Shown piece after piece: positions 2,028 through 11,324 of a stretch of 53,029 bases of DNA. A program made the translations under genes and the position numbers. This DNA comes from Lacunisphaera sp. (lineage in GTDB: Bacteria; Verrucomicrobiota; Verrucomicrobiia; Opitutales; Opitutaceae), in contig JAQSDJ010000058.1 of assembly GCA_029945855.1 (NCBI GenBank), forward strand, positions 1,124-54,152, in the 5' to 3' direction. Under the pieces are notes generated by a model. It did no database searches and had not been told where the DNA came from. It saw only the letters and a program-made list of their open reading frames with translations. Numbering within the stretch: position 1 is the stretch's first letter; the number at the start of each line of letters is the position of its first letter.

Positions 2028-3155
2028 TTATCGAATCTCCCAATTGTAGGGATATTTCGAGAGCGGCTTGGAGCCAGTGGCGGTGACCTGGACGACATCC
2101 TCCCAGCGGCAGCCGCCCAAGCCCGGATAATAAAGCCCCGGCTCGACCGTCATCACAGAGCCTTTTTTTAGCGGGTAGGAGACGGCCCCCGACATCCGGC
2201 CCGGGTCGTGCACCGCCAGGCCGAGGCCGTGGCCGGTGCCATGGATGAAGCCGACGGCGCCGGTCTTCGTCTGCCGGGTGACATAGCCGGCGGCGGCGAA
2301 ACAGTCGGTGACGGCTTGGTGGACGAGTTTGCCGTCGACGCCGGCACGGATGGTCTTGGTGGCGCTCACCTGCGCCTCGCGGACGGTGGCGACGAGCTTC
2401 CGCTGCGCCGCGGAAGCGCGGCCTTTCAGGTAGGTGCGGGTCATGTCGCCAAAATAGCCGGTCTTCACGACGCGCGGGAAAATATCGATGATGATGAGCT
2501 CGTGCGGCCGGAGCGCGCCGGAGCCGCGGTCGTGCGGGTCGCAGGCCTGGTTGCCGCCGGCGACGATGGTGTCCTGCGGGTTGCCGCCCTGTTCGGCGAT
2601 CGCGGTCTCGAGGGCGAAGCGGAGCGACTCGGAGGTGAGCGGCTGGCCGCGGTAAAGCAGCGAGCGGCCCTTGATCTTCGCGGCGCGCAGGATTTTCTCG
2701 GCCACGGCGTAGCCGACCGTGCAGAGACGGTTGCCCTCGCGGATGCAGCCCGCCTCCCAGGCGGTCTTGATCTCACGCTCGGGAAACATCAGGCCGTCGG
2801 CGAAGGTCAGCCGGAGGCCGAGCTTGGTGAGCTTCACATAAAGCGAAGCGGGGAAATCGTCCGGCACGCGGAAGTAGCGCAGGCGGTAGTGGGCGGCGAG
2901 GGCGGCGATGATCTCGGCGACGCCGGCCTTGGGGCCGTAGAGTTCCTGGGCGCGGGCGAGCCATTTTTCGCGCGGCAGCACGACGTCGAAGCCGCCGGTC
3001 TTCTTCACGCGGCCGAACTCCAGCGCGCTCTGGACGGTGATCTTTTTGCCGCCGACGCCGAGGGCGATGAAGGGGTCGTGCACTTCAACGCGGCCGAAAT
3101 ACAGCATGTCGGCGCTGGCGTGGGTGTCGGCATAGAGCAGGGGCGAGGGGGTCAT
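2028..3155 (-). CDS. M24-family metallopeptidase (Xaa-Pro aminopeptidase-like)
   Basis: A 375-residue cytosolic protein with a creatinase-like N-terminal region and a C-terminal pita-bread fold. The dinuclear metal ligands can be followed in order: Asp in IIIDIFPR, Asp in GDMTRTY, His in GTGHGLGL, Glu in TVEPGLY and Glu in RWEDVV. The family removes N-terminal residues, often before proline; the exact substrate cannot be read from sequence. The start follows a reiterated TTCAC-type pyrimidine tract. It lies on the same strand as the glycosylase gene, separated by the inverted repeat at 1944-2014. Confidence 0.88.
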   Translation of the reverse strand: MTPSPLLYADTHASADMLYFGRVEVHDPFIALGVGGKKITVQSALEFGRVKKTGGFDVVLPREKWLARAQELYGPKAGVAEIIAALAAHYRLRYFRVPDDFPASLYVKLTKLGLRLTFADGLMFPEREIKTAWEAGCIREGNRLCTVGYAVAEKILRAAKIKGRSLLYRGQPLTSESLRFALETAIAEQGGNPQDTIVAGGNQACDPHDRGSGALRPHELIIIDIFPRVVKTGYFGDMTRTYLKGRASAAQRKLVATVREAQVSATKTIRAGVDGKLVHQAVTDCFAAAGYVTRQTKTGAVGFIHGTGHGLGLAVHDPGRMSGAVSYPLKKGSVMTVEPGLYYPGLGGCRWEDVVQVTATGSKPLSKYPYNWEIR

Positions 3156-3157
3156 GA

Positions 3158-3200
3158 GAGTGAAGGTGAAAGTGGGAGTGAAGGCGAGGGCGGGAAGGTC
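3158..3200. repeat. Purine/pyrimidine word tract upstream of the M24 gene
   Basis: The plus strand reads as repeated GTGAAGG/GTGAAAG/GTGGGAG words. On the coding strand of the peptidase this is an imperfect TTCAC-type pyrimidine repeat ending just before the ATG. A comparable purine tract lies upstream of rhaM at 45896-45975. No clear Shine-Dalgarno sequence is visible within it. Confidence 0.5.
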
Positions 3201-3245
3201 GCGATTGGGGATTGCGGGACGGGGCCGATTCAGGTCAATGCAGTG

Positions 3246-3279
3246 AAACCACTAATTGACACGAATGAACACAAATATT
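3246..3279 (+). repeat. Word repeat covering the DUF192 start
   Basis: The sequence AACCACTAATTGACACG followed by AATGAACACAAATATT is a single arm of the word-type repeat in which CCAC, ACGAATG and ACACAAAT motifs recur. Related words occur at 868-898 and 45423-45561. Here no second arm is seen. The likely ATG of the downstream lipoprotein (3265) lies inside it. Confidence 0.5.
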
Positions 3280-3831
3280 CCAAGGGCAGGCGCGGGGCGG
3301 TTCGGCGGGATAGCCATCCGGATTCCTGCGTGGATGATCTGCGGTCTGTTGGGACTCACGCTGCTGTCGGGCTGCGGTCGCGCCGATACCGCCCAGGCCG
3401 CCGCGCCGAAGACGGTGGACGACCGTTTCGCCATCAAGGTCGGCGAGCGCACGGTGCAGATGCAGGTCGCGGCGCTGCCGGCCGAGTTGCAGAAAGGGCT
3501 CATGTTCCGGAAAACGATGGGCGAGGACGAGGGCATGCTGTTCGTCTTCACCGTGCCGCAGCCGCAGGGCTTCTGGATGCGCAACACCACGCTGCCGCTC
3601 GACATCGGCTACTTTGACGGGACGGGCGAGCTGAAGGAGATTTATCCGCTCTATCCCCTCGACGAGAAATCGGTGACGTCACGCAGCCGGGCCATCCAGT
3701 TCTGCCTGGAGATGAACCAAGGCTGGTATAAGCGCAACGAGGTGAAGCCCGGCGCCAAGCTCGATCTCAAGGCCGTGGCCGAGGCGCTCCGGGCCCGCGG
3801 GCTCAAGCCGGAAGCGGCGGGACTGCGGTGA
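3265..3831 (+). CDS. DUF192-family lipoprotein
   Basis: The 188-residue product has an arginine-containing N terminus, a hydrophobic segment and a lipobox LLSGC with Cys37, so it is probably an exported lipoprotein. The rest matches the compact DUF192 fold: GLMFRKTMGEDEGMLFVF, FWMRNT and LPLDIGYF are characteristic family stretches. The biochemical role of DUF192 is unknown. I chose ATG 3265; TTG 3256 is also possible. Both lie within the dispersed word repeat, so the repeat supplies the first codons. ATG 3334 would leave no basic n-region before the signal. Confidence 0.82.
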   Translation: MNTNIPRAGAGRFGGIAIRIPAWMICGLLGLTLLSGCGRADTAQAAAPKTVDDRFAIKVGERTVQMQVAALPAELQKGLMFRKTMGEDEGMLFVFTVPQPQGFWMRNTTLPLDIGYFDGTGELKEIYPLYPLDEKSVTSRSRAIQFCLEMNQGWYKRNEVKPGAKLDLKAVAEALRARGLKPEAAGLR

Positions 3832-4336
3832 TCCGACGAACGGACAAGTCACGCCCCTTCGCTAAACAGCGCTCAAATTGGGGCCCGGCCTGCCTCGCTC
3901 CCTCGGGTTCTCCGCCCAGTGCGGCTGCGTCGGCCATAGGCTTGGCGAAGACCGGACCCGGATGTCCGGTGGTGTGGGGGCCGGAGGCTAGGGAGTGTCT
4001 TCAAGCCCTCAAACTCCCGCGAGTTTAACCACGAATGCTCCGCCTAACGGCTTCGCTGGGATGAGCCCTCCGCCTAATCGGCTTCGGTTTTGGTCCGGAG
4101 ACGCGGCTAATCGCCACGGGGAATCCAAGCCGATCTGGCCTCCCGTTTCAGTCGGCGATGAGCCGACCCCCGAAATCCCACGCGAAGCCGATTAGGCGAA
4201 GCTCACCAAGAAGCAGCGCCGTTAGGCGATGCATTCGTGGTTAATAAAACTCTGCGTTTGTCCGGTCCTTCGCCGTTTGGAAATGGGGGTTTGAATACAC
4301 GCCCTAATTAATTCCGGCTACCTGATTCGGCTTTCT
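3832..4336. other. Gap with inverted-repeat element
   Basis: No convincing gene is present in these 505 bases. Bases 3840-3990 are ordinary GC-rich DNA with no recognisable signal. Bases 3995-4242 hold the left copy of the large repeat described separately. Open frames across it arise because the repeat lacks stops in some frames; the same peptide-like string appears on the opposite strand at the second copy. Confidence 0.6.
3995..4242 (+). repeat. Left copy of island-flanking inverted repeat
   Basis: Bases 3995-4159 match the reverse complement of 6294-6457 at about 96 percent by hand alignment (six substitutions and one 1-base gap). The element is also internally palindromic: its left arm (AACCACGAATGC, CGCCTAACGGC, CGCCTAATCGGCTTCG) recurs inverted at 4182-4242. 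Compared with the other copy, about 55-60 bases are missing near 4159. Outer core-like words are GCCTAAC (4042) and GTTAGGC (4221), reminiscent of integron attC ends, but the span is longer than a normal attC site. Confidence 0.75.
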
Positions 4337-6501: not shown

Positions 6502-7383
6502 TTATTCGGATAGGTTGTAGGGTGGCGTCGCGCCGTCGCGGGCGGCGACGAATTCGCCCAGGCGGCAGGCGCGGGCGAGCGCGAGGGCGGGGGATTCGCG
6601 ATGTCGGATGAAGCCGGCCAGCAGGCCCGCGAGAAAGGCGTCGCCTGCGCCCACCGTATCGCGCACCGCTACGGCCCGGCCTGGCTCCCAATGCCAGATG
6701 CCGTCGCTGAGGATTCCGGCGCCATGTTCTCCGGCGGTGATGCAGACCACGGGGCAACCGGTCTGCCGGGCGAGGGCGCGGGCGTGCGGTTCCTCGCGGC
6801 CATAGCCGGGATCGTCCTCGACGAGGCGGGCGGCCTCGGCGGAGTTTAGTTTCAGCAAGGTGGCGCGCGCGGCCAGTTCCCGCACGAGGGGCAGGTCGTC
6901 GTGCGGGGGGCGGAGGTTGACGTCGAACACCCGCAGCGCGTCGGGCGGGAGGACGGCCAGCAGGCGGGAGAGGGAGGCGCGGTTGTAGGTCGAGCGTTGG
7001 GCGAGGGAACCGAAGACCGCGGCGCGCGCCGTCACGGCGGCGCGAACGGTGTCTTCGCCGAGTGAGATCTGGTCCCAGGCGACGCTGGGGGTGATCTCGT
7101 AATGCGCGTCGCCGGAAGCTCCGAGGGTGGCGGTGACGTAGCCGGTGGGCAGGCCGAGGTGGCGGGGCAGGCCGAGGAGGTCGAGACCCCAGTGGTGCAG
7201 GCGGCGCTGCAATTCGTCGCCCAGCACATCCCGGCCGAGCGCGGAGACCAGATGCGGGCGCAGGCCGAGCTGGTGGAGGTGATAGGCGACGTTGTGCGGG
7301 GCGCCGCCGGGAAAAAGGCCGCGCGGGAGGAAATCCCAGAGAATTTCCCCGAAGCAGATGACGGTGGGGGCGGGATCAACCAT
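6502..7383 (-). CDS. PfkB-family carbohydrate kinase, probable fructokinase
   Basis: This 293-residue protein starts with the ribokinase-fold strand TVICFGEILWDFLP, has the GGAPHNVAYHL substrate-side motif and ends with the family anion-hole/catalytic motif DTVGAGDAF. The Asp of GAGD is the catalytic base. The FGEILWD and GGAP motifs favour fructokinase over ribokinase. It is the last gene of the disaccharide operon. Its ATG (7383) lies a few bases before the stop of the upstream fusion gene (7378-7376), so translation is probably coupled. In context it would phosphorylate fructose released by hydrolysis of the disaccharide. Confidence 0.86.
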   Translation of the reverse strand: MVDPAPTVICFGEILWDFLPRGLFPGGAPHNVAYHLHQLGLRPHLVSALGRDVLGDELQRRLHHWGLDLLGLPRHLGLPTGYVTATLGASGDAHYEITPSVAWDQISLGEDTVRAAVTARAAVFGSLAQRSTYNRASLSRLLAVLPPDALRVFDVNLRPPHDDLPLVRELAARATLLKLNSAEAARLVEDDPGYGREEPHARALARQTGCPVVCITAGEHGAGILSDGIWHWEPGRAVAVRDTVGAGDAFLAGLLAGFIRHRESPALALARACRLGEFVAARDGATPPYNLSE

Positions 7384-9475
7384 CGCGCAGGCTGGCGGGA
7401 TCGGCCTCGAGCTCGTGGCAGGCGCGGAGGAAGGACGCGGCGCTCCACGCCTGGAAGGCCTTGCCCATGGGCTGGCCGGTGCGGCCGTGGGCCCACTCGT
7501 TGAACTCCCACTCGTGGTCGCGGCCGAGCTTGTTCAGCTCGGCGAGGCGGACGAGTTCGCGGCAGGCGACCTCGTGGAAACCGAGGCGGTGGATGAAGCG
7601 CACCCACATGCCGCCGATGAAGGGCCAGATGCCGCCGTTGTGGTAGTGGTGCGGCAGGTTGAGGAGGTTCACCGTGTAATAGGCGCGCCAGTCGGGGTCG
7701 CCGGCCTGCACGACGGGATAGAGGTTGGTGACGGGCCAGGGCTGGTTGACGCCGACGCCCCACATGAAGCGGAAGGCGATGCGCGCGCGGTCCACGTCGA
7801 GCACGTTCATGAGGAAGGCGAGGATGTTGCCATAGGTGTCGCAGCGCCAGTTGAAGGCGAAAGGCGTGATCTCGGCCAGCAGATATTGGGTGTCACCGAG
7901 GCCGCTCTGGCGGTCGGCGAAGCGGTTGGCGCGCGGGCCGTTGGCGTCGGGCGCGGTCGTCGGCCAGAAGACGTCGAGGATGCGGCTGCGGATCTTCTGC
8001 GACCAGCGGAGGTAATCGGCGGCGCGGTCAAACTGGCCCATGAGCTCGAGGATGCGGCCGTAGCAGACGTTGGCGCGGAACCAGAGGACCTCGTCGTAAA
8101 GGACGTTGTAGCTGCGGCCGAAGAGGTCGGTCCAGTCGCCGGCCTCGGGGATCTCGAGCAGGCCGTCGTTGTTGGAATCCTGCGCGCTGAGCCAGTTCAT
8201 GATCGTCTGGAGGCGGCCGGCGTGGCGGTAAAGGAGGGAGTGGTCGCCGGTGATGTTGGCGTGGTTGTAGAGGGCGTTGATGACCCAGAGACCGCTGTCG
8301 ATGGAGGCGATGCTGCCGACGCCGGAGTAGTCGGGCTGGCCGTCGTCGATGCGGACGTTGGCGGGGATCTGGCCGTTGGGGGTGGTGGCGTTGAGGAGCG
8401 TCTCGAGGGTGGCGATCTGGGCGGCACGGATGTCGTCGTCGGCGATGTGCAGCGTGTTGGAGACGGTGATGGCGCCGTCGCGGGCCCAGACGCTGCGGTA
8501 GTTGGCGTCGGTGCCGGTGACGGTGTTGTGCGCGAGCGAGCAGGCGGAGAAGCCGAGGGGGGTGATGTTGCGGCGCAGGGCGACGAGGGCCTGCTCGTAG
8601 GCGGTGGCGAGGAAGGCGCGCTCCTTTTCGGTGAGCGAGCCGAGCTTGGTGCCGGTGAAGAGCAGGCGGAAGCCCGGGTCCATGTCGGTGCGCTTGAGAC
8701 GGGTCTTCTCCTTGGTGGGCAGGACGCAGATGACGCCGTAGTGGCAGAGGCCCTCGAGCACGCCGTCGGCGAGGATCGAGCGCGGGCTGAAGGTCGGGAC
8801 GTCGACCGTGGCCTCGAAGAGCTCGGGCAGGGCGTTTTCCACGATGATGCCGCGGACCCCGGGCAGGCGGAACATGGAGGCGTCGTTGCCGGTGTCGCCG
8901 GCGACGAGGACGGTGTCGAGCGGCACGCCGAGACGGGTGCAAAGCCAGGCGAGGGCGCCGCCCTTGGTGGCGTGGCGCGGGAGCACGTCGAGGTCGCGGG
9001 CGCTGGAATAGACGAGCATCACGTCGAGGCCGGCGTCGGCGAAATGATGCCGGAGCTCGTGGATGGCCGCGGGCGAGGCCCGGTCGAGGAACCAGCTCGA
9101 CTTGAAGTCGTGCTGGAACTCGGGCGGCTGCGGGCGCACGCCCGGGTAGCGGCCGGCGATCACGCGCACGCGGGCGAGGTCCCAGCCGTCGGCGAGGTGG
9201 GTGTTCAGCTCGTCGAGCAACCGGCCGGCGCGCACGTCGAAGATCTGCGTCCCGACGCCGCCGATGTAATAGTCGGCCTCGGGCAGCGTGCCGTTCTCGA
9301 CAAACCGCCGGAGATCGGGGACGAGCCGGCCGGTGTTGTAGACGAGCAGCGGACGGGCCTCGGGCGACAGGGCGGTCCAGGCCTCCTTGAAGCGTTGCGA
9401 CGCCTCGGGATTGCCCAGCAACGTGCCGTCGAGGTCGGTGCTGAACAGGCGGATGGAAGCGGGGGGCGGGTTCAT
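7376..9475 (-). CDS. Sugar-phosphate phosphatase fused to an (alpha/alpha)6 glycosidase
   Basis: A 699-residue two-domain protein. Residues 1 to about 245 form a HAD phosphatase of the sucrose-phosphate-phosphatase type: nucleophile motif FSTDLDGTLL (Asp14, Asp16), Lys171 and GDTGND (193-198). Residues from about 260 resemble amylo-1,6-glucosidase or GH100 invertase-type six-hairpin barrels, with SVWARDGA, GDWTDLFGRSYNVL, GIWPFIGGMW and EFNEWAHGR. The first half would dephosphorylate the phosphorylated disaccharide made by the upstream synthase; the second may hydrolyse a related glycoside. The start is 3 bases after the stop of the universal stress gene. The substrate of the second half is not certain. 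Confidence 0.85.
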   Translation of the reverse strand: MNPPPASIRLFSTDLDGTLLGNPEASQRFKEAWTALSPEARPLLVYNTGRLVPDLRRFVENGTLPEADYYIGGVGTQIFDVRAGRLLDELNTHLADGWDLARVRVIAGRYPGVRPQPPEFQHDFKSSWFLDRASPAAIHELRHHFADAGLDVMLVYSSARDLDVLPRHATKGGALAWLCTRLGVPLDTVLVAGDTGNDASMFRLPGVRGIIVENALPELFEATVDVPTFSPRSILADGVLEGLCHYGVICVLPTKEKTRLKRTDMDPGFRLLFTGTKLGSLTEKERAFLATAYEQALVALRRNITPLGFSACSLAHNTVTGTDANYRSVWARDGAITVSNTLHIADDDIRAAQIATLETLLNATTPNGQIPANVRIDDGQPDYSGVGSIASIDSGLWVINALYNHANITGDHSLLYRHAGRLQTIMNWLSAQDSNNDGLLEIPEAGDWTDLFGRSYNVLYDEVLWFRANVCYGRILELMGQFDRAADYLRWSQKIRSRILDVFWPTTAPDANGPRANRFADRQSGLGDTQYLLAEITPFAFNWRCDTYGNILAFLMNVLDVDRARIAFRFMWGVGVNQPWPVTNLYPVVQAGDPDWRAYYTVNLLNLPHHYHNGGIWPFIGGMWVRFIHRLGFHEVACRELVRLAELNKLGRDHEWEFNEWAHGRTGQPMGKAFQAWSAASFLRACHELEADPASLRDG

Positions 9476-9478
9476 GGC

Positions 9479-9952
9479 TTATTGCCGGCGGACGGACAAC
9501 ACCGGGCAGACAGACTGGCGCATGATGGTTTCGGCCGTGCTGCCGACGAGCACGCGCTTGAGTCCAGAGAGGCCCTTGGTGGTGAGGACGATGAGGTCGA
9601 TGTTGTTCTGGGCGGCGAGGGCGAGGATCTCTTCGGCCGGCTTGCCCACGAGGACAGCGTTGCCCGCCCGCAGACGCGGGGGCAGTTGGCCGGACATCTC
9701 GCCCAGCCGCTTGATGGCCGCCTGCTTGAGGCGCGGCAGGTTGGCGAGGTCTGCCTTGGCCGGCGTGGACAGGACGTGGACGAGGTGGATCTTGGCCGAG
9801 AACTTCTGGGCGATCGGCACGGCGTAGCGGAGGGCCTGGCGGGATTTGCCGGAGAAATCCAGCGGCACCAGGAGGTTGATCAGGCGCGGGTAGGAGGCCT
9901 TGACGCGGCCCATGACCGTGCGCGGGGTCTTTTCAGCAGAATTAGTCTTCAT
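9479..9952 (-). CDS. Universal stress protein (UspA family)
   Basis: A 157-residue single Usp domain: NLLVPLDFSGKSRQAL at the N terminus and TTKGLSGLKRVLVGSTAE near the C terminus. The latter matches the nucleotide loop except that the first glycine of G-2x-G-9x-G(S/T) is Thr. I chose ATG 9952; the frame extends to 10021, but that would overlap the upstream synthase. It sits between the synthase (34-base gap) and the fusion gene (3-base gap), tying the disaccharide pathway to stress physiology. Confidence 0.85.
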   Translation of the reverse strand: MKTNSAEKTPRTVMGRVKASYPRLINLLVPLDFSGKSRQALRYAVPIAQKFSAKIHLVHVLSTPAKADLANLPRLKQAAIKRLGEMSGQLPPRLRAGNAVLVGKPAEEILALAAQNNIDLIVLTTKGLSGLKRVLVGSTAETIMRQSVCPVLSVRRQ

Positions 9953-9986
9953 GGTGGATCGGAGGTTGCGGTTGGTAAGATGGGAC

Positions 9987-11324
9987 TCAGTCGCCGTCGT
10001 TCCAAGGCTCGTCCCACTCATTGTCGGTGAAGGCGAGGGCGGTGGCGCGTTCCTCGATCAGGCTCGTCAGCTGTTGGGCGATGCCGGTCCAGGTGAAGAG
10101 GCTGCGGGCCTTGTGCGCGCCCATGCGGGCGAGGCGGGCGGAGAGCCGCGGATGGCGCAGCACCTTGACGATGGAGATGCCGAGGTCCTCCTTGTCGAAG
10201 GAGTCGGCGTAGAGCGCGTGCCGGCCGAAGGTGACGGCGCGGAACAGGCCGCCGTGGGTCGTGATGACGGTGGGCGTGCCGCAGGCCATGGCCTCGATGG
10301 CGGTCATGCCGAAGGGTTCGTAGCGGCTGCTGAGCACGAAGACGTCGGCCGCGCGGTAATGGTCGGCGAGGTCGGCGTCGGCCACGAAGCCGCTGAACTG
10401 CACGCGGTCGGCGAGGCCGAGGGCCGCGGCCTGGGCCTTGAGTTCATCCAGGATCTTTTGCTCAGCGGGGTTGAGCTCGGTGCCGCCGACGGCGAGGTGC
10501 AGGCGGGCGTCGGGGATGCGTGGGGCGACGATGGAAAAGGCGTCGATCAGGAGGTCGTAGCCTTTGTTGCGGGCCAGCCGGCCGATGGCCAGCACGACCT
10601 TGCCCTCGTAGCCGAGGCGTTGGCGGGTGGCGTTGCGCGAGGCGCCGCCGACCGGGAAGAACCGGTTGTCGTCGTAGCCCGGCGGGATCATCGCCACCTG
10701 TTCGGCGGGCGCGCCATAGTCCCTCACGATCATGTCCACCTGGTCCGGCGTGGTGGCGATGATCTCCGCGCAGGTGCGAAAGAGCAGCGTCTCCTCGTTG
10801 ATGCGCTGGGTGAAGTTGTATTTCCTCTCGAATTTCGCGGCGTCATCCGGAAAATCACGCTCCATGAGCTGCTTTTTCCAGAGGCCGAGGGAGTGCGGGG
10901 TGTGGACGTGCGGCACGTTGAGCGCCTCGGTGAGGCGTTGGGTGGCGACCCCGGCGTCCCAATAGTGGCTGTTGAAGAACTGGTATTGGAGCCGGTGCTT
11001 CTGGATGAAGCGCAGCGCGTGCTCGGACCATTCGCCGAGGTGGCGGACGAGGTATTCCTTGTCGAGGAAGTTGCGGCCGCCACACGGGACGCGGAGGACG
11101 CGCACGCGGTCGTTGACGAGGTCGATCTCGGGCTGGTCCTCGAAGCGCCGGGTCCAGATGTCGACCTCGAAGCCGAGTTGGGCGAGTTTCTTGGCCAGTT
11201 CGAGCACATACACGACCTGACCGCCGGTGTCGGCCGCCCCGAGCGGGGGTTCGGCGGCGACGTAGCCGTGGGTGGAGACCATGCCGATGCGCGGGAGCGC
11301 AGACTCAGGATTCAATCCATGCAT
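9987..11324 (-). CDS. GT-B glycosyltransferase, mannosylfructose- or sucrose-phosphate synthase-like
   Basis: A 445-residue GT4-type enzyme. Near the N terminus it has PRIGMVSTHGYVAAEPPLG and DTGGQVVYVLELAKKL; near the C terminus RLARNKGYD and the E-x7-E signature in SRYEPFGMTAIEAM. As I remember it, these stretches are closer to the mannosylfructose-phosphate synthase (MfpsA) branch than to ordinary glycosyltransferases. The reaction would be transfer of a hexose from an NDP-sugar to fructose 6-phosphate. It is the first gene of the operon. I chose ATG 11324; the longer frame to 11504 adds a low-complexity, unconserved-looking extension. Donor sugar is undecided. Confidence 0.82.
   Translation of the reverse strand: MHGLNPESALPRIGMVSTHGYVAAEPPLGAADTGGQVVYVLELAKKLAQLGFEVDIWTRRFEDQPEIDLVNDRVRVLRVPCGGRNFLDKEYLVRHLGEWSEHALRFIQKHRLQYQFFNSHYWDAGVATQRLTEALNVPHVHTPHSLGLWKKQLMERDFPDDAAKFERKYNFTQRINEETLLFRTCAEIIATTPDQVDMIVRDYGAPAEQVAMIPPGYDDNRFFPVGGASRNATRQRLGYEGKVVLAIGRLARNKGYDLLIDAFSIVAPRIPDARLHLAVGGTELNPAEQKILDELKAQAAALGLADRVQFSGFVADADLADHYRAADVFVLSSRYEPFGMTAIEAMACGTPTVITTHGGLFRAVTFGRHALYADSFDKEDLGISIVKVLRHPRLSARLARMGAHKARSLFTWTGIAQQLTSLIEERATALAFTDNEWDEPWNDGD

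Follow-up and report, generated by a model that had tools for sequence, protein, structure and literature searches.

A predicted disaccharide-cycle operon with a fused sucrose-phosphatase and GH100-like glycosidase in Lacunisphaera sp.

Four minus-strand genes are packed within positions 6502-11324 of a 53,029-nucleotide stretch of DNA from Lacunisphaera sp. (assembly GCA_029945855.1, contig JAQSDJ010000058.1), the whole of which is referred to here as the window. They code for a family 4 glycosyltransferase (GT4) synthase, a universal stress protein (Usp), a fusion of a sucrose-phosphatase (SPP) domain with a glycoside hydrolase (GH) domain, and a PfkB kinase. Here we present the evidence that this operon probably carries every step of an intracellular cycle that makes and breaks a disaccharide containing fructose, with sucrose as the likeliest product, a reading to which a probability of about 0.6 is given. 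The fusion itself is a real and widely shared domain join within familiar pathway logic.

In the proposed cycle the synthase would combine a nucleotide-activated hexose with fructose 6-phosphate (F6P) to give a disaccharide-6-phosphate, and the SPP domain of the fusion would remove the phosphate to release the disaccharide. In the other half of the fusion the GH100-like domain, using Asp450 and Glu660, would split the disaccharide into hexose and fructose, and the PfkB protein would convert the fructose to F6P. The disaccharide pool would then be the balance of the two fused activities. The two fused activities, the sugar itself and any cross-control between the domains are predictions from sequence, and the osmolyte role is inferred from the family. 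By homology, all four functions of a sucrose turnover operon (sps-spp-frk plus a cleaving enzyme) lie in one cluster. The original prediction, made from the letters of the DNA, had described a make-and-break operon for a disaccharide with a fructokinase partner, and the domain content is in favor of such an operon.

Gene layout and domains of the fusion protein

The features of the operon are as follows:
9987..11324, minus strand: GT4 synthase, predicted hexosyl-fructose-6-phosphate synthase of the SPS/MfpsA type (Pfam GT4 domains; NCBIfam; TeSPS residues)
9479..9952, minus strand: Usp, a lineage-specific insertion in the operon (PF00582, 2.4e-27)
7376..9475, minus strand: fusion of 699 aa, predicted sucrose-phosphatase domain plus GH100-like six-hairpin glycosidase (domain, structure and alignment matches)
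8735..9451, minus strand: SPP (HAD-IIB) domain, residues 9-247 of the fusion (S6PP, 1.9e-57; 1s2o, 1.3e-28; motif residues intact)
7397..8638, minus strand: GH100-like glycosidase domain, residues 280-693 of the fusion (PF12899, GDE_C; fold match to InvA/InvB)
8126..8128, minus strand: Asp450, equivalent to InvA Asp188 (alignment to 5goo)
7496..7498, minus strand: Glu660, equivalent to InvA Glu414 (alignment to 5goo)
6502..7383, minus strand: predicted PfkB-family fructokinase (PF00294, 9.7e-31; best solved relative 2qhp, 'Fructokinase', 4.9e-44)

Genes, positions and junctions were all found as originally predicted, on the minus strand: 34 nt separate synthase and Usp, 3 nt separate Usp and fusion, and fusion and kinase overlap by 8 nt. 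The 34-nt gap presumes the Usp ATG at 9952; a start at 10021 gives an overlap and a start at 9913 a gap of 73 nt. The open frame of the synthase extends to 11504, and the codon-based start prediction lies at 11282. A minus-strand terminator-like site upstream of the synthase (11570-11557) carries no weight (shuffles average 3.6), and none is given to the only promoter-like site of the promoter scan, which lies on the strand opposite to the operon. A search of the genome of the window found a single copy of the fusion.

The predicted join of a phosphatase to a glycosidase was borne out as well, with S6PP and Glyco_hydro_100 in the same chain and the predicted active sites of both intact. The SPP domain reaches 195.1 bits with S6PP (Pfam gathering score 20.3; E 1.9e-57; residues 9-247), and with NCBIfam TIGR01485 it scores 137 bits, under the cut-off of 183.65. 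The HAD motifs are complete in the window (D14, D16, T48, K171, D194 and D198), with residue roles that we take to be the catalytic ones of this superfamily.

The glycosidase half matches PF12899 (Glyco_hydro_100) with 50.7 bits (gathering score 23.6; 1.5e-13; fusion residues 530-687), and this family matches all 17 GH rows of alignment A2 at E <=0.001. The nearest relatives of known structure by sequence are the invertases InvA, InvB and CINV1; when the family profile is compared with solved structures, GH100 invertases take the first four places (2.9e-20 to 2.1e-15), followed by the next match at 1.5e-08. In the alignment to InvA (5goo) D450 corresponds to D188 and E660 to E414, residues with described catalytic roles (PMC6995568, PMC10661998), and both are invariant in 49/49 fusions, window included. 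By sequence the domain thus appears nearest to the invertases (PF12899/GH100).

Several observations weigh against taking it for an ordinary invertase. The match to PF12899 spans just the last third of the domain, GDE_C (PF06202) also matches 17/17 GH rows, and PF22422, which is mannosylglycerate-hydrolase-like, matches 14/17. An equivalent of InvB Arg430, a residue tied to invertase catalysis in the literature, is missing; where it would align, the whole family has a 3-residue gap (counted by hand). The glycosidase site would therefore differ from known invertases at the missing Arg, and for this reason the domain is called GH100-like and not a canonical invertase. Structure prediction gave InvB, Arabidopsis neutral invertase and InvA as the best GH matches in Foldseek, with a model that is partly of low confidence: parts of the (alpha/alpha)6 barrel have pLDDT <50, including Asp450 within the stretch 444-456. 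The VIA-align Z score is 27.1 for InvA and 28.8 for another glycosidase, 5z3e, and many other six-hairpin enzymes are matched as well, at Z of about 23-29. Since the fold does not separate six-hairpin families, it was not used alone for naming the family.

Glucans had been raised in the original prediction as a possible substrate of the C-terminal domain. That the domain acts on glycogen or another alpha-glucan in the manner of a debranching enzyme, its fusion to SPP being incidental, would agree with the GDE_C matches in all 17 rows, with the span of GDE_C (residues 66-422 of the domain of the window, longer than the 268-425 of PF12899) and with a fold that is shared between families. It is nevertheless very improbable, because PF12899 outscores GDE_C for the window (50.7-52.8 versus 38.4-40.8 bits), because the best solved relatives are the four GH100 invertases, and because linkage to the synthase is conserved across phyla, with unfused GH genes near synthase and SPP genes in Planctomycetes.

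Occurrence, origin and decay of the fusion

A scan of genome contigs, built on six peptides of the protein of the window and therefore able to miss distant fusions, found 66 loci that encode a relative. The fusion is held in one frame of >600 codons in 48 of them, two of which (L031 and L038) have an SPP domain truncated at its start, and it is conserved down to 50% identity in a 32-row alignment (A1, 32 of the 49 fusions with the window included; L147 and L148 stand outside the 49). The fusion is therefore no product of chance or of assembly. Among 57 genomes near the window (its own included) 13 gave a full-length match, one of them with an in-frame stop (G056); the fusion is split over contigs or pieces in G005, G016 and G020, and G025 has the SPP part only. 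Weak matches in G006, G022, G027 and G039 are partial domain matches and were not counted as fusions. A Variovorax row in the GH identity comparison came from a wrong frame and was disregarded.

By their NCBI origin the 48 fusions belong to Verrucomicrobiota (33), Bacteroidota (6), Chloroflexota (3) and Planctomycetota (2), with one each from Armatimonadota, Spirochaetota, Rhodothermota and SAR324. The fusion thus occurs in seven named phyla and SAR324; most records are metagenome-assembled genomes (MAGs), so that phyla with a single record need care. Should both domains be active, synthesis and breakdown of a compatible-solute sugar would be united in one protein in at least seven bacterial phyla, and the setting of an osmolyte pool could be studied with a single purified enzyme.

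Synthase calls of <=380 aa and fusion calls of <=600 aa were excluded. In 45 of the 48 fusion loci a synthase gene accompanies the fusion on its strand, at a distance of <=2.4 kb, upstream in 34 and downstream in 11. The three loci without it are L031 and L044, where the contig ends beside the fusion on one side, and L032. A fructokinase gene follows the fusion in 16/48 loci. The other 32, where none was found after the fusion, weigh against the proposed cycle, with four of these contigs ending within 1.6 kb.

In the GH tree of 39 rows (thinned by identity from 62; outgroup of Deinococcus and Caldilineales GH100-like proteins) the 28 fused rows lie on one side of a single branch (support 99/98) and the 11 unfused rows outside it. 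The change between the fused and the unfused state occurs once in each of 200 bootstrap trees. These trees fit a single origin of the fusion. The linked gene set probably came before the fusion, because unfused GH genes of Planctomycetes have synthase and SPP genes next to them or nearby (L067, L071 and L145). At a further locus (L146) the GH gene adjoins the synthase, and no SPP was found in the 18 kb read. The sugar-uptake settings of distant GH100-like genes in Deinococcus and Caldilineales speak against the proposed cycle. On a plasmid of Deinococcus peraridilitoris (L100, 5166-7278) a gene of the ROK family precedes one of the GH100 family, with sugar ABC transporter genes in the vicinity, which suggests that this unfused branch serves uptake catabolism.

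Of the 47 fusions whose alignment row covers the nucleophile of the SPP domain (D14), 46 have Asp there. Two fusions with altered phosphatase halves count against the proposed cycle. In a SAR324 MAG (L051, 7986-10073) the nucleophile is replaced by Asn and the first Asp of motif IV is lost too; no second SPP match was found within its 18-kb locus. In a Planctomycete (L147, genome G652) Pro stands in place of the nucleophile, and a free SPP with intact motifs lies directly ahead of the degenerate fused one (3348-4076 and 2557-3297); the phosphatase step has apparently been handed over to the free SPP. L057 has Asn at the first Asp of motif IV, and in L086 a free SPP precedes a fusion that keeps all of its own motifs. 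The phosphatase half can thus be lost or replaced, and a loss of the acid/base residues of the GH half was not seen in the 49 fusions.

Two ideas on how the halves work together can be viewed in this light. The first, which we put forward tentatively, is a toggle in which one polypeptide would complete and also undo the synthesis of a stress disaccharide, the hydrolase being gated by ionic strength, phosphate or a sugar-phosphate bound to the SPP domain. If so, the pool would be set by switching one protein and not by two separately regulated enzymes, and the degenerate SPP domains of L051 and L147 would be sensors for the hydrolase. The second holds that the cycle releases hexose and stores no osmolyte: F6P would be a reusable carrier, and a nucleotide-hexose would be turned net into free hexose at the cost of the ATP spent by the fructokinase. 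All enzymes of such a closed cycle are co-encoded, and a phosphatase and a hydrolase in one chain would favor immediate splitting. This cycle would presumably be wasteful unless regulated, and the loss of SPP with retention of GH, accompanied in L147 by a separate SPP gene alongside, argues against strict channeling; we regard it as unlikely.

The synthase and the nature of the disaccharide

The synthase scores 226.8 bits with the NCBIfam model for MshA and 190.1 bits with the N-terminal model of sucrose-phosphate synthase (SPS), both far under cut-off; for the canonical SPS model TIGR02472 the latter score compares with a cut-off of 576, which is not reached. In the genome of the window it is the only strong SPS-like match, 11 other matches to TIGR02472 having <=38.5 bits. 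The original prediction had likened the synthase to MfpsA and had proposed mannosylfructose in place of sucrose, to be judged by a phylogeny with MfpsA and SPS enzymes. This phylogeny was run with SPS and MshA rows (36 rows in all, thinned by identity from 57, no MfpsA row among them). The 26 synthases of the system, among them a plasmid-borne one of Paracoccus and those of the Planctomycete loci without fusion, form one clade (support 100/99), separate from Halothermothrix orenii SPS with the bidomain SPS of Pan216 and Acidithiobacillus, and separate from the group of MshA and Thermosynechococcus elongatus SPS (TeSPS). Since SPS activity occurs in more than one GT4 group, the position in the tree cannot name the donor. 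An SPS-like synthase clade is thereby marked out whose donor sugar is easy to assay.

Roles in binding F6P and the donor have been described for residues of TeSPS (PMC7264703). The equivalents of His158, Arg178, Arg249, Glu331 and Glu339 are kept in the synthase. K89 (Arg105 in TeSPS) and R174 (Arg178) are present in 26/26 clade rows, Lys at the former position being shared with H. orenii SPS. Q36 (Gln51) is present in 25 of the 26, which are all rows that reach this position, and both MshA rows have M. Two features tell against an SPS-type site: the Gln51 equivalent also occurs in four GT4 rows of no assigned function, so that an MshA-like site is excluded and F6P is not proven, and all 26 clade rows have N at TeSPS Arg253 and M at Leu335. 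On balance the residues favor F6P as the predicted acceptor and leave the donor undecided.

Sucrose is favored over mannosylfructose, the hexose not being proven, because two of 18 GH-bearing genomes pair this glycosidase with a canonical SPS as the only strong SPS-like match. The 18 were chosen by hand from the genomes behind the 66 loci. In the Planctomycete Pan216 (L070) the GH is 56% identical to that of the window and directly follows a PfkB gene; the sole SPS-like match (at limits of E 1e-20 and 1e-30) is a canonical SPS-SPP with 700.9 and 294.7 bits, compared with NCBIfam cut-offs of 576 and 209.75. In G409, the genome of a Pirellulaceae MAG (L072), the sole match at 1e-30 is a partial copy of a canonical SPS-SPP with 63% identity to that of Pan216. 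Twelve of the other genomes have a match of 176.9-214.1 bits (under cut-off, as is the clade), G063 has one of 108.7 bits, and three have none at E 1e-30. The GH proteins of L067 and L071, encoded next to clade synthases or not far from them, share 66-67% identity with that of Pan216; provided that the substrate of the hydrolase stayed the same, both kinds of synthase would therefore make sucrose. The argument is weakened by the SPS gene of Pan216, which is not adjacent to its GH gene, and by the incompleteness of the G409 MAG.

The sucrose accumulation reported for Rhodopirellula baltica (PMC3694870) was considered as a clue to the product and was rejected. An SPS-like match (E 1e-30) is present in only one of six genomes of the GTDB genus of L067, a Rhodopirellula MAG, so that the sucrose of R. 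baltica cannot be credited to this synthase, a result that also takes support from the sucrose reading.

The same cycle could instead run on mannosylfructose, with an MfpsA-type synthase that uses GDP-mannose and a GH that splits mannosylfructose; we hold this possible, if doubtful. The synthase lies outside both sampled SPS groups and has the clade-specific N and M at TeSPS Arg253 and Leu335. Its clade includes the GT of the alphaproteobacterium Paracoccus sp. TOH, beside an SPP gene, and MfpsA is itself alphaproteobacterial, its gene coming with a phosphatase and a fructokinase gene. PF22422 matches 14 of the 17 GH rows, and the fold matches include a GH63 mannosylglycerate hydrolase. Opposed to mannosylfructose are the occurrence of the same GH with canonical SPS-SPP in Pan216 and G409 and the nearest solved relatives by sequence, the GH100 invertases, of which InvA is described as specific for the alpha-1,2 bond of sucrose (PMC6995568).

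Searches for MfpsA were run without a positive control. Among plasmid records 1 and 22 were matched, none from Rhizobiales. No MfpsA-type match was found at E 1e-70 in 337 alphaproteobacterial genomes, in many of which the top candidates alone were scored. Further searches gave 0/9 and 0/9 genomes and 0/61 at 1e-60, absences that mean little.

On plasmid p1 of Paracoccus sp. TOH (L099, 3668-7260) the clade synthase, 49% identical to that of the window, is accompanied by the SPP gene and, in the place expected for the GH100-like domain, by a GH32-like gene. With a weak match (2.2e-05), this partner may again belong to a fructoside-splitting family.

Known systems and accessory genes

A close likeness is found in Synechococcus sp. 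PCC 7002, whose spsA-sppA-frkA-amsA operon joins synthase, phosphatase, fructokinase and a sucrose-cleaving enzyme (PMC11046441), and the operon of the window may work by the same logic. The cleaving enzyme of PCC 7002 is an amylosucrase, a member of family 13 (PMC4390843), whereas in the window an invertase-type six-hairpin domain is fused to the phosphatase, so that hydrolysis would replace glucan transfer; the GT of the window also belongs to a separate clade. Bidomain SPS (GTD-PHD) likewise unites an SPP domain with a second pathway enzyme, but its partner there is the synthase and in the window the hydrolase. The phosphatase domain of bidomain SPS is sometimes non-functional (PMC4390843).

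Anabaena InvA and InvB (GH100) share the D188/E414 pair with the GH domain of the window and are among the matches to its predicted fold. They differ in an identity of about 18-20%, in Arg430 of InvB, which the window lacks (counted by hand), and in chains of 457-476 residues without an SPP domain. The mfpsA and mfppB genes of Agrobacterium encode a synthase and an SPP-like phosphatase for a fructoside, as is predicted for the window; to our knowledge no glycosidase fusion accompanies these mannosylfructose genes. Among the matches listed from the open-licence PMC literature (titles and starts of abstracts) an SPP-invertase fusion was not described. A survey of plant invertases places prokaryotic homologs in cyanobacteria and proteobacteria and not in other prokaryotes (PMC10661998). 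The GH100-like proteins presented here are mostly from outside these groups and would extend the invertase-like relatives beyond that range.

Plasmids p6 and p7 of Acidithiobacillus sp. AMEEHan carry PfkB, GH100 and SPS genes side by side, a more distant likeness that also speaks for sucrose. Their GH100 stands alone and is distant and InvA-like, with 27% identity over 179 residues to the GH of the window, and an SPP-like domain (131.3 bits; cut-off 209.75) is fused to SPS and not to the hydrolase. The GH100 and SPS protein accessions of the cassette are identical in both plasmid loci (L129 and L136; 10.8 and 17.6 kb).

The Usp had been predicted as a member of the operon. It is present in the window and is not a general part of the system, being an addition confined to close relatives. 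At this position it occurs in 4 of the 66 loci of the scan (L021, L024, L036 and L042). Within the genus of the window it is found in L002, L004, L005, L007 and L015 besides the window itself; in L003 and L006 the stretch from synthase to fusion gave no Usp match.

Twenty hand-picked neighbors were scanned with Pfam for a kinase or isomerase specific for mannose or glucose. They have mostly unrelated functions and do not indicate the hexose: transporters, oxidoreductases (Gfo/Idh-type twice, in L049 and L059), a transketolase, a GH2 enzyme and others, with one neighbor giving no match. Clustering of the open reading frames (ORFs) of neighbors was swamped by antisense frames. In L074 (2813-4156) one frame joins the start of the synthase to the end of the GH domain, which may be a deletion or an error of metagenome-bin assembly. 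At 4423-6147 of L048 the synthase and the fusion are separated by a sodium:solute symporter gene, and similar ORFs occur in four loci.

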